Assembly (NCBI GenBank): GCA_016867195.1
Contig: VGKE01000004.1
Location: 1 to 10,725, forward strand
Source of the DNA: Candidatus Nealsoniibacteriota bacterium
GTDB taxonomy: Bacteria; Patescibacteriota; Minisyncoccia; Minisyncoccales; GWA2-38-27
DNA length: 10,725 nt
Direction of reading: 5' to 3'
The translations under genes were made by a program, and so were the position numbers. The notes under the pieces are model-generated. The model saw only the letters and a program-made list of their open reading frames with translations, was not told the DNA's origin and did not search any database. This document shows, piece by piece, positions 1-1,587 of the stretch (its first letter is position 1; each line of letters starts with the position of its first letter).

Positions 1-12
1 AAGTTAGCAACT

Positions 13-56
13 ACCGAGAACTGTTCTCGGCAATATTGCCGAGAACAGTTCTCGGT
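13..56. repeat. Nested palindrome, intergenic copy
   Basis: This is a perfect 44-nt palindrome downstream of the reductase gene. Each half is itself a small hairpin: 14-30 reads CCGAGAACTGTTCTCGG and 39-55 reads CCGAGAACAGTTCTCGG, each with 7-bp arms and a 3-nt loop. The halves are joined by CAATATTG. It could fold as one long hairpin or as two small ones. It has no clear U-tract on the minus strand, so it is not an obvious intrinsic terminator. Its core is shared with 527-580, and the outer stem pairs differ in a compensatory way. Confidence 0.9.
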
Positions 57-98
57 TGGTTTTAGAATGTAAATAACGCGGTGAATTCTTACATATTA

Positions 99-1034
99 TT
101 ATAACAAAAAATCGGATTCTATTTTAGTTGTTTTGGACAACAACCACGGCGCTTTAAATCCCAAAAAATAAACTATTTTAGTTGCTGTTTTGGAAAGAAC
201 AATCTTGGGAATAAAAAATTTTTTTATTTCTTTATGATATTTTAAAAAATCAGGAAAACTTTTTAAGAGAATTTCAGCCGCTATTAATCCCCAGACAACT
301 CCCCCGCCCGACCAGGGCTTGGTTAAACCAGCAGCATCGCCGCAGAGAGTAATTAAGGGATTTGAAGGAATTATAAGTCCCTGAGGGATAATTCTTGCTT
401 TTGCTCTAAGGAAATCAACTCCTTTAAAGGAACCGAGTTCCTTAATTGCTCCCTGTTCTATATTTTCTCCCCTTGGTATTTTCCAGGAGAAGCCATTTTT
501 ACAGGGCCAAACCTCTACATAATTAGAAATAGCGGAGAACTGTTCTCCGCCGTTTGGCGGAGAACAGTTCTCCGCTATTTTCTCTATATTTAAAGCGCCT
601 AATCTATATTTTGGTTCTTTTAATCCTAAACCCCTTCTAATAAAAGAGTTAGCCCCGTCGCAACCAATTATTCTATCGTAGCCCTGAGGAAATCGAGAAA
701 TCTTTTGATTTAAAACAATTTTAACCCCTGCTTTTTTAGCCAGGTCGGCTAATAAATTATCCAATTCAAAATGGGATATTATAAAAAAGTCCTTAGAAAA
801 ATTTACCCTAACTGTTTTTTTGGGAAAATGCAGAAGAACAAAATTTATCTTATTTTTAACCAGCCCCTCTGAGGCTGGGATAAATTCAAAAATTTTTTTT
901 GAAAAAAGACCAGAGCAAATATCTTGGCCAATTTTCTTTTTTTGTTCAAAAACAGTTACTTCCCGGCCTCTTTCTGACAACTTCCAGGCTAAATAAAGAC
1001 CAACTGCTCCTGCTCCAATAATGGCTACCCTCAT
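99..1034 (-). CDS. FAD-dependent oxidoreductase, geranylgeranyl reductase-like
   Basis: This is a flavoprotein of the geranylgeranyl reductase / FAD-dependent monooxygenase superfamily, about 311 residues from the chosen start. The N-terminus has the Rossmann FAD-binding motif GAGAVGLYLAWKL, followed by FEQ with the acidic residue that binds the ribose. A CSGLFS segment follows at about residue 40. Near residue 230 is GDAAGLTKPWSGGG, the second FAD-binding motif typical of this family. Members usually reduce isoprenoid double bonds or act on related lipids; the substrate here cannot be inferred. I start it at the ATG at 1034, not 27 nt upstream, because MRVAIIGAG begins the Rossmann strand directly and its ATG overlaps the TGA of the upstream small gene (ATGA), suggesting translational coupling. 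A perfect 54-nt palindrome (527-580) lies in frame within it and encodes roughly AENCSPPNGGEQFSA, which looks inserted relative to the family pattern as I remember it. Confidence 0.85.
   Translation of the reverse strand: MRVAIIGAGAVGLYLAWKLSERGREVTVFEQKKKIGQDICSGLFSKKIFEFIPASEGLVKNKINFVLLHFPKKTVRVNFSKDFFIISHFELDNLLADLAKKAGVKIVLNQKISRFPQGYDRIIGCDGANSFIRRGLGLKEPKYRLGALNIEKIAENCSPPNGGEQFSAISNYVEVWPCKNGFSWKIPRGENIEQGAIKELGSFKGVDFLRAKARIIPQGLIIPSNPLITLCGDAAGLTKPWSGGGVVWGLIAAEILLKSFPDFLKYHKEIKKFFIPKIVLSKTATKIVYFLGFKAPWLLSKTTKIESDFLL
527..580. repeat. In-frame nested palindrome inside the reductase gene
   Basis: The arms are 25 bp and perfect (527-551 and 556-580), with a 4-nt GTTT loop. Each half (531-551 and 556-576) contains an 8-bp hairpin, GCGGAGAA-CTG-TTCTCCGC and its CAG-loop counterpart. 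The 54-nt length equals 18 codons and the reading frame stays open. The GAGAACTGTTCTC core is the same as in the intergenic copy at 13-56, but the flanking stem pairs are changed on both sides together. Confidence 0.92.
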
Positions 1035-1306
1035 AATAATTTCCAATTTCCTTGGATCCAAAAGGGACTACCCGAAGGTTTGCTTTTCAATTTCCAATAA
1101 TTTAACATTGGACGTTTGGCATTTGAAATTTTATTAGAAATTGGTAATTGGGAATTAGACATTTCAAATTGTATCGGCTCTTTATTTTGATATTTAGCCG
1201 TTATAAAGCCGGCGGCAAAAGAAAACAAAGAGATTAAAATAACGCCAATTATTAATACAATGTCTGCCTGATAATTTTTGACAAAATTTTTAATATTTGC
1301 TAACAT
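1031..1306 (-). CDS. Small membrane-anchored protein with repeat-derived tail
   Basis: I do not recognise a characterised family. The 91-residue product has a lysine-containing N-terminus, then one strong hydrophobic segment at about residues 15-37 (ADIVLIIGVILISLFSFAAG), which would make it a single-pass membrane protein with a short exposed tail. From about residue 46 the sequence is encoded by an AT-rich repeat of the kind found in the spacer at 3654-3816 (region 1035-1170), giving low-complexity residues rich in S, N, P, K and L. The TGA stop overlaps the ATG of the downstream reductase (ATGA), which supports real translation and coupling. The start lacks a Shine-Dalgarno sequence and lies only 8 bp from the divergent rpmA start. 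The original protein may have ended near residue 46-48 before repeat insertion. Confidence 0.6.
   Translation of the reverse strand: MLANIKNFVKNYQADIVLIIGVILISLFSFAAGFITAKYQNKEPIQFEMSNSQLPISNKISNAKRPMLNYWKLKSKPSGSPFWIQGNWKLL
1035..1170. repeat. AT-rich repeat sequence captured in a coding tail
   Basis: This stretch is built of recurring AATTTCCAAT / ATTGGTAATTGGGAATT-like words in both orientations, with a GC-richer patch (about 1053-1084) in the middle. The same word style fills the non-coding spacer at 3654-3816. Here it is open in one minus-strand frame and forms the last half of the 91-residue small membrane protein. Repeat limits are approximate. Confidence 0.55.
1278..1306 (+). promoter_or_regulatory. 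rpmA sigma70-type promoter, near-leaderless
   Basis: A perfect TTGACA -35 at 1278-1283 is followed by a 17-nt spacer and TAACAT at 1301-1306, with TGC directly upstream giving an extended -10. Expected initiation is around 1312-1314, immediately before the rpmA ATG at 1315. No Shine-Dalgarno sequence precedes that ATG. The whole promoter lies inside the coding region of the divergent small membrane gene. Confidence 0.6.
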
Positions 1307-1314
1307 AAAATATT

Positions 1315-1587
1315 ATGGCAAAAACAAAAGCAACAGGCGCTACAAAATTAGGAAGGGATTCTCAGCCAAAATATCTTGGGATTAAACGCTCTGAGGGACA
1401 AATAGTAAAACCAGGGATGATAATTATTCGTCAGAGGGGAACAAAGTTTTGCCCGGGAAAAAACACAAAAAGAGGGTCTGACGATACTATTTACGCTGGA
1501 AAAACAGGGGTTGTTAAATTTACAACGAAAAGGAAAACAAAGTTTGATGGTTCTCAACGAATAATTAAAATCGTGAACGTTATTTAA
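1315..1587 (+). CDS. rpmA: 50S ribosomal protein L27
   Basis: This is ribosomal protein L27, whose basic N-terminus reaches towards the peptidyl-transferase centre of the 50S subunit. The 90-residue length is normal. The family core GMIIIRQRGTKFCPGKN followed by KRGSDDTIYAGKTGVVKF is clear at residues 34-68. The N-terminus starts MAKTKATGATKLGRDSQ, so there is no cleavable extension of the Firmicutes type. It is the only plus-strand gene in the window. It converges on pyrG with 6 nt between stop codons, so there is no room for a terminator hairpin. The upstream promoter predicts a transcript starting within a few nucleotides of the ATG, consistent with the absence of a ribosome-binding site. 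Confidence 0.97.
   Translation: MAKTKATGATKLGRDSQPKYLGIKRSEGQIVKPGMIIIRQRGTKFCPGKNTKRGSDDTIYAGKTGVVKFTTKRKTKFDGSQRIIKIVNVI

Follow-up and report, generated by a model that had tools for sequence, protein, structure and literature searches.

Rickettsia palindromic elements (RPEs) are short palindromic repeats that lie in frame in many unrelated genes (PMC3733652, PMC10969869), and those first reported were about 150 bp long (PMC10969869). The part of PMC3733652 available to us names no mover for RPE-like palindromes that enter genes. It identifies the intragenic repeats of R. conorii as RPE-4 and RPE-6 and describes the CGTC repeats of Rickettsia as not associated with transposase genes. According to the same part of that source, intragenic REPs with GTAG or CGTC tags had been described by 2013 in Opitutus terrae, Rickettsia conorii and others, and in O. 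terrae and other bacteria REP monomers and dimers are located in ORFs, with many replication and repair genes, including a DNA ligase, among the hosts. The principle of a palindrome inside a gene is thus not new. The TIRYT/TIRtron systems treated there combine RAYT-like proteins with inverted repeats that lack GTAG, some of which are self-complementary and some dispersed as dimers or clusters, and a GGGGWSAS motif is named for them as well (PMC3733652).

The stretch of DNA analysed here, 10,725 nucleotides from a Candidatus Nealsoniibacteriota genome, is referred to as the window. The genome (G000) comprises 531,980 bases in 121 contigs and is 94% complete. A perfect palindrome at 527-580 of the window leaves the frame of a reductase gene open. 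With a probability of roughly 0.75, it represents a REPIN-like, non-autonomous doublet whose palindrome family is served by the Y1/HUH (RAYT-like) transposases of Patescibacteria. The features concerned are listed in Table 1.

Table 1. Features at the start of the window (positions are those of the window).
Feature	Position	Strand	Remarks
MITE copy (one of 14)	1..93	-	cut by contig start; end taken from the terminal repeat in other copies
Second doublet, ACCGAGAACTGTTCTCGGCAATATTGCCGAGAACAGTTCTCGGT	13..56	.	in the ksgA-like fragment of the MITE
FAD-dependent oxidoreductase, geranylgeranyl-reductase-like	102..1034	-	open through the palindrome
REPIN-like doublet, perfect palindrome	527..580	.	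25-nt arms, 4-nt loop, within the reductase gene
First 19-nt palindrome of the doublet, GCGGAGAACTGTTCTCCGC	532..550	.	same 19 nt in and beside the L280 transposase (other genome)
Second 19-nt palindrome of the doublet	557..575	.	inverted copy of the first

The arms of the palindrome, 527-551 and 556-580, are 25 nt each, 100% complementary and separated by 4 nt, and the gene is open through them, as the first-pass annotation of this DNA had stated. The same annotation gave the length as exactly 18 codons. The 54 nt do amount to this, although the element is offset by one base from the codon boundaries, its first base being a second codon position. Its description of each half as a hairpin was correct: each is a 19-nt palindrome GCGGAGAACWGTTCTCCGC, the two halves are in inverted orientation, and the doublet measures 38 nt from outer end to outer end of its two cores. 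It also proposed a core common to an intergenic palindrome at 13-56. The two elements indeed have two 13-nt cores GAGAACWGTTCTC in common at an identical spacing of 25 nt; however, the element at 13-56 lies in a MITE-borne ksgA-like fragment and is not an independent intergenic insertion. The outer stem of this partner is CCGAGAA/TTCTCGG, and its middle is unlike that of 527-580.

The peptide predicted across the 527-580 palindrome is AENCSPPNGGEQFSAISNY, and the RNA fold of the element has an energy of -50 kcal/mol (z -13.8). A scan of window positions 1-1400 against Rfam gave no family at gathering score; the best rows, miRNA-type models far under their gathering scores, were taken as chance matches to a long hairpin. 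A reading of GAGAACTGTTCTC as a LexA box was dropped, the spacing being wrong and copies being located within genes.

The reductase ORF encodes 311 aa from the ATG at 1034, or 320 aa from a TTG at 1061. PF01266 was matched above cut-off and the geranylgeranyl-reductase model TIGR02032 below it. For comparison, 55 orthologous loci were read, from 69 of 119 genomes with a match. The window's reductase has 30 residues between fixed anchors versus 17 in 47 of the 54 other orthologues. The database protein P0001, which equals the window's reductase but for one residue (ENSS for ENCS) and has the same insert, contains 35 residues between another set of anchors versus 22 in 90 of 119 database homologues (best 120 of 1699). 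An insertion of about 15-18 residues had been anticipated; the alignments confirm an insertion and suggest a net gain of about 13. This is less than the 18 codons spanned, so a few loop residues were probably replaced or are shared. In the AlphaFold2 model, residues 156-168 are predicted with low confidence (pLDDT < 50) as a turn between two strands. Palindromes are present at the same turn in 4 of the 55 orthologues with DNA (the window's, L134, L209 and L213), all of them different in sequence. The loops of L135, L146 and L151 are longer at this turn but contain no such palindrome. The same residues encoded by non-palindromic DNA were not found in homologues: most lack the residues, and three with DNA carry other palindromes.

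Long loops are patchily present and replace one another at this one site of the protein. They occur in 24 of 120 database reductases (best 120 of 1699), and many resemble doublets of various palindrome families (ENxS..ExFS, ETRS..RDRVS, EARP..GRAS and GVRPP..GGLTP), the classes being named from peptide patterns, not from DNA, with six long loops fitting no pattern. A quick tree built without the loop columns requires 17 gains or losses of the long loop, at least 7 of which are forced by starred branches. Over 286 residues outside the loop, proteins P0008 and P0043 share 96.9% identity, one having a long loop and one a short loop, and P0014, P0020 and P0024, with identities of 94.3-96.1%, have three different palindrome-type loops on peptide evidence. 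With different loops in near-identical reductases, turnover at the turn looks fast. The loop of P0030 is seemingly half one palindrome family and half another (EARP...GEQFS). When the reductase homologues were back-translated, synonymous choice gave arms of at least 19 in 10 of 24 long loops versus 0 of 96 short loops. Elsewhere in these proteins, such arms can be reached at some place in 18 of 120, and the P0001 loop reaches only 15; we regard this test as suggestive only.

The expectation of further copies in the genome was borne out. G000 contains 32 exact GAGAACWGTTCTC sites, all of which are read on both strands and which form 16 doublets with one spacing. Those 16 are the occurrences of the exact doublet pattern (reversed control, 0), which is absent from all 13 other genomes of the family searched. 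Flank alignment assigned 14 doublets to a MITE and one to ksgA, in frame; the last is the reductase copy. The MITE is 226-227 bp long in the four copies with both ends seen, and its terminal repeats agree in 21 of 28 bases in the one copy compared. Between the terminal repeats lie the ksgA-like fragment and a second palindrome pair of the CGTCATTGCGAG type (e.g., L026, L029, L031 and L033). The doublet of ksgA (rsmA) is read as ILK PTENCSRQYCREQFS VVANLPFYI, and the MITE around its palindrome reads ILKPTENCSRQYCREQFSVVASLPFYI in one copy translated; the KsgA search also matches MITE copies. VVANLPFY-like residues are conserved in KsgA orthologues, and hence the MITE most likely captured a piece of a ksgA gene that already bore the palindrome, a direction that we infer from these sequences.

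A second core, GAGGTCSGACCTC, is that of the palindromes of transposases C11 and C32. It occurs at 20 sites in G000 (reversed control, 0), of which 13 are in mechanical ORFs of at least 80 aa. These sites belong to the two transposases' own genes, a doublet and a singlet in comEC, a doublet in ligA, and a doublet and a singlet in tsaD; the rest are in three less clear ORFs. The ligA and comEC doublets, each 38 nt long, are identical but for 1 nt and share one spacing, and the tsaD doublet is 2 nt shorter. Both non-MITE GAGAAC doublets of the genome are also located in genes (ksgA and the reductase). Several palindrome families lie in frame in several genes, namely those for the reductase, KsgA, LigA, TsaD and ComEC, which is the RPE-like behaviour suggested in the first-pass annotation. 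The background was estimated on the window and 20 whole contigs, the largest ones (180,751 of 531,980 bases, 163 ORFs of at least 100 aa). With halves of longer doublets included in the observed counts, there were 18 intragenic palindromes with arms of at least 9 versus a mean of 1.2 in 20 codon-order shuffles (most 4), and 29 with arms of at least 8 versus 6.6 (most in 20 shuffles, 12). Elsewhere, a TTCGGACGTGCGACGTCCGAA-type doublet was noted at L037:2741-2785, just downstream of a LysM/M23-like ORF; its core also flanks the L098 transposase and occurs inside it.

Host protein lengths were compared for four gene families at 27 in-gene palindromes (arms of 11 or more), of which a few overlap. 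The net change relative to the median orthologue ranges from -9 to +13 residues, and the palindromes span 7.7 to 18 codons. In G000, the values are +2 for KsgA, -4 and +7 for TsaD and -9 for LigA; these loops vary in length among orthologues, which makes the empty-site evidence for the three proteins ambiguous. At TsaD site 1, there are 43 residues between the anchors, as in 10 of 29 orthologues. The net gain is mostly smaller than the palindrome span, so simple insertion does not fit all copies, and on the alignments the in-gene events look length-saving in many cases. Either insertions were trimmed later or entry replaces loop sequence, and this is the main gap of a plain RPE-like insertion model. 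Neither a DNA-level empty site nor a target-site duplication was established for these palindromes.

Some relatives show further peculiarities. Six of 29 TsaD relatives (L341:1028-2158, L374-L402) have 79-95 residues between the anchors versus 43, where G000 has the palindrome singlet. The TsaD of G066 (L397) contains an identical 42-nt perfect doublet palindrome twice, at residues 118 and 193, and the KsgA of G021 (L201) contains four palindromes of three kinds, all within an open frame.

The Y1_Tnp model matched five places in G000, four of them above cut-off. Transposases C11, C80 and C32 scored 33.4, 50.2 and 40.0 bits with PF01797 (cut-off 23), and the C26 transposase had no Pfam match at 1e-4. 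The only family match was to NF047646 (RAYT equivalog), with 40.1, 50.8 and 45.2 bits for C11, C80 and C32, below the cut-off of 80. The NHxH motif and tyrosines are conserved in the transposase alignments, from which a catalytic tyrosine is putatively assigned; searching the sequences of solved structures with the transposase alignment gave 0 matches. The full genes of C11, C80 and C32 feature a perfect in-frame palindrome at about residues 61-68. The same palindrome is repeated next to the gene, at both its ends in C11 and C80 and on the one side seen in C32. No palindrome was found for C26.

Two sets of related transposases were studied. Set 1 comprised 84 sequences, the best 80 of 428 confirmed relatives and the four of G000; according to their titles, most are from Patescibacteria, L063, L070 and L105 are from other groups, and several are called just 'bacterium'. 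Among these 84 (best 80 of 428 plus four), 60 have a flanking palindrome and 34 have palindromes on both sides. An internal palindrome, with arms of 8 or more, is present in 24 and is accompanied by a flanking one in all but L067. By the criteria used, 60 of the 84 lack an internal palindrome and 24 a flanking one. In all 23 transposases of this set with both kinds, an internal palindrome agrees with the flank of the same gene over 17-33 nt, versus a median of 4 nt for the flanks of other set-1 loci, a few of which are similar over up to 25 nt. Of the two internal palindromes of L091, one is without a match to the flank. The palindrome density at set-1 loci is 26 in 55 kb of transposase genes versus 48 in 252 kb of other ORFs.

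Set 2 consisted of 50 further transposases from genomes chosen mostly for a palindrome in the reductase or KsgA, with five sequences also present in set 1. Flanking palindromes were found in 43 of the 50 and internal ones in 25, all of which also have flanking palindromes; the match to the own flank is at least 15 nt in 22 of the 25, the exceptions being L273, L309 and L310. The 46 matched internal palindromes of both sets, in which one sequence is counted twice and L057 gives two, are distributed over the codon phases as 15, 15 and 14, plus 2 even-length doublets. Most are located at residues 44-70, three at 153-160, and the two of L057 at the start of a truncated match. At the transposase of G084 (L278), two palindromic doublets (48 and 56 nt) adjoin the gene, and a third, of 50 nt, is within its own ORF.

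On a quick tree of 125 rows with the palindrome columns left out, the presence of the internal copy changes 25 times, at least 10 of these changes being forced; the internal copy was thus gained or lost many times. In the group of C80, L075/L252, L272, L258, L302 and L304, the codon phase is constant and the core GAGAA...TTCTC is conserved. The outer stems are unlike between most members, and within each member the internal copy equals the flanking one, a pattern suggesting either that the copies are replaced in concert or that selection keeps them alike. The L075 model has pLDDT values below 50 at residues 59-63, a stretch predicted to be disordered that directly precedes the HUH-motif strand. 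We also considered whether palindromes are selected to be open in every frame, which the counts do not support: of the unique palindromes, 22 of 41 are open in all three frames in transposases with an internal copy and 29 of 57 in the others, versus 18.7 and 25.3, respectively, with shuffled arms (p 0.15 and 0.17).

The core type is associated with the transposase phylogeny. Of the 98 palindrome-bearing tree rows, 12 belong to the GAGAA-core class, which requires 3 changes versus 11.6 for shuffled labels, with 0 of 500 shuffles as low; L307, counted among the 12, possesses its own, different palindrome. The other core classes show more scatter (e.g., GAGGT..ACCTC, 10 changes for 12 rows). Transposase C80 of G000 falls within the GAGAA class, and its stem CCGAGAA/TTCTCGG is that of the ksgA/MITE copy, with a different loop. 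The exact 19-nt unit of the reductase element was found in and beside transposase L280 of genome G090. A transposase with the exact 527-580 stem was not found in G000, where all 32 exact GAGAACWGTTCTC sites are in doublets and none is a transposase-flanking singlet.

In-gene palindromes were also compared with the transposase palindromes of the same genome, using 35 palindromes (37 before overlapping ones were merged) of four gene families in genomes among the 19 with transposase palindromes. A match of at least 15 nt was obtained for 6 of the 35, three of which (tsaD twice and ligA, all in G000) had been pre-chosen for the motif; permuted genomes gave a mean of 0.56, and 1 of 5000 permutations reached 6. 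The matches that were not pre-chosen are those of KsgA in G021 (23 nt), KsgA in G038 (21 nt) and the reductase in G021 (17 nt, also found in another genome). The remaining 29 have no same-genome 15-nt match among the transposases read, which are a part of those present in these genomes, and this incompleteness partly accounts for them. A same-genome match of ksgA was removed, as it came from a MITE copy adjoining the C11 transposase. The different but complementary outer stems of 13-56 and 527-580 had been taken earlier as a sign of selection on structure rather than on the peptide. Such selection is unneeded, since stems vary between transposases and match the transposase that owns them.

We suggest the following course of events. 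The transposase would recognise the hairpin in single-stranded DNA, probably via the inner core (here GAGAA...TTCTC), and would then insert or swap singlets and doublets at new places, including the interiors of genes. Selection would retain events in flexible surface loops in which the frame stays open, and what survives would be an in-frame loop of the protein. The transposase gene would tolerate its own palindrome likewise, in a disordered loop before the catalytic strand. Transposition itself, the recognition of single strands and the order of these events are what we infer.

Copying other than transposition, that is, gene conversion or recombination between palindromes, could also spread and homogenise them, the transposase gene then being one more host. 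Near-identical reductases with different palindrome-type loops at one site, the exchange-like loop of P0030 and the joint variation of internal and flanking copies in the outer stems of related transposases would agree with such copying. We nevertheless consider it unlikely, as one class of cores clusters in a single part of the transposase tree and palindromes stand on both sides of 34 of 84 transposases (best 80 of 428 plus four), as in mobile elements. The palindromes may, alternatively, have been made in place by replication template switching or hairpin-templated repair, with no transposase involved, and have survived in tolerant loops. A net gain often near zero (TsaD site 1; KsgA, +2) fits overwriting rather than interruption. 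It is improbable, however, that an origin in place would put one 38-nt doublet, with 1 nt different, into both ligA and comEC, make some in-gene palindromes the same as those of resident transposases of that genome, and let the internal and flanking copies of a transposase match each other and not other loci.

A protein-binding site or a regulatory RNA hairpin under functional selection, for instance one attenuating gene expression, would be in line with the very stable RNA fold. We judge this very improbable, given the patchy presence even at 96.9% identity elsewhere in the protein, the different families at one site, the many unrelated genes hit and the lack of an Rfam family at gathering score in window positions 1-1400. 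That the doublets are an assembly or library artefact is hardly credible: 10 of the 16 are located within 200 nt of a contig end, but all 10 are MITE copies, and repeats of any kind break assemblies. In addition, P0001, with one residue different, has the same insert, and related inserts occur at the same site in other assemblies.

Under the preferred reading of 527-580 as a REPIN-like doublet served by a Y1 transposase, the palindrome families described here are tied to small transposases of the same or related genomes, whose genes often carry the palindrome in frame. The mechanism is therefore directly testable in vitro. The data suggest that core proteins of these small genomes may gain and exchange loops quickly, which is relevant to the annotation, protein evolution and structure prediction of CPR proteins. 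A more far-reaching idea, which we offer tentatively and think more doubtful than probable, is that Patescibacteria possess a system for rewriting loops. The transposase would keep matching, co-changing hairpins upstream, in frame inside and downstream of its gene, and palindromes, beyond inserting, would replace flexible surface loops of core proteins (ligase, TsaD, KsgA, ComEC and the reductase). Nearly identical proteins would then differ by a whole loop, and the in-frame internal hairpin would be a working part rather than a passenger.

In the part of the literature covered, we found neither a RAYT-like gene reported to contain a cognate palindrome nor a report of RPE- or REP-like intragenic elements in CPR bacteria. 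The CPR setting, the link to a transposase and the copy inside the transposase gene are the points without a report in that literature. The first-pass annotation knew of no named family of this kind in CPR bacteria; this agrees with the lack of a CPR report in the literature covered, but intragenic REPs had been described by 2013, as the available part of PMC3733652 states, and a likely mover can be named. Like RPEs, the palindromes are in frame in unrelated genes (reductase, KsgA, LigA, TsaD and ComEC). The unit, however, is a doublet of 38-54 nt or a singlet of ~20 nt, not about 100-150 bp, and unlike in Rickettsia, matching Y1 transposases are present in the same or related genomes. With the elements of Opitutus terrae they share REP-type monomers and dimers inside ORFs and a DNA ligase among the hosts; the palindrome classes and phyla are different, and the available part of PMC3733652 does not describe a transposase gene with its own REP. 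The TIRYT systems are similar in having a tyrosine transposase with non-GTAG inverted repeats, and differ in that the in-ORF cognate copy and the CPR setting seen here are not mentioned for TIRYT in that part of PMC3733652.

The tags of classical REPs are missing. Of 171 flanking palindromes with arms of 9 or more, 1 has GTAG within 6 nt on either strand, unlike in GTAG-REPs, and 1 has a CGTC tag beside the hairpin, unlike in CGTC-REPs. Part of the present family has a cognate copy in the transposase ORF. In the rayT of E. coli K-12, used as the one control, the longest word common to ORF and flanks is 9 nt, versus 34, 25, 21 and 10 nt in C11, C80, C32 and C26, respectively; C26 has no palindrome. 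The perfect-palindrome scan did not detect a flank hairpin at E. coli K-12 rayT. Two adjacent hairpins also form the putative mobile unit of the double-hairpin elements of fungal and algal mitochondria, for which we know of no transposase link; those are organellar, unlike the bacterial elements described here. In form, the elements are like REPINs, inverted palindrome pairs with a short fixed spacing and several copies per genome (here, 16 doublets with one core spacing). REPINs are mainly extragenic, whereas many copies here are intragenic (13 of 20 GAGGTCSGACCTC sites in ORFs). The traits in common with the REP/REPIN-RAYT system (TnpA-REP, REPtron) are a palindrome-flanked Y1/HUH transposase (on both sides in part of the family), singlets and inverted doublets scattered over the genome, the presence of several palindrome families in a genome, and a palindrome type linked to the transposase.
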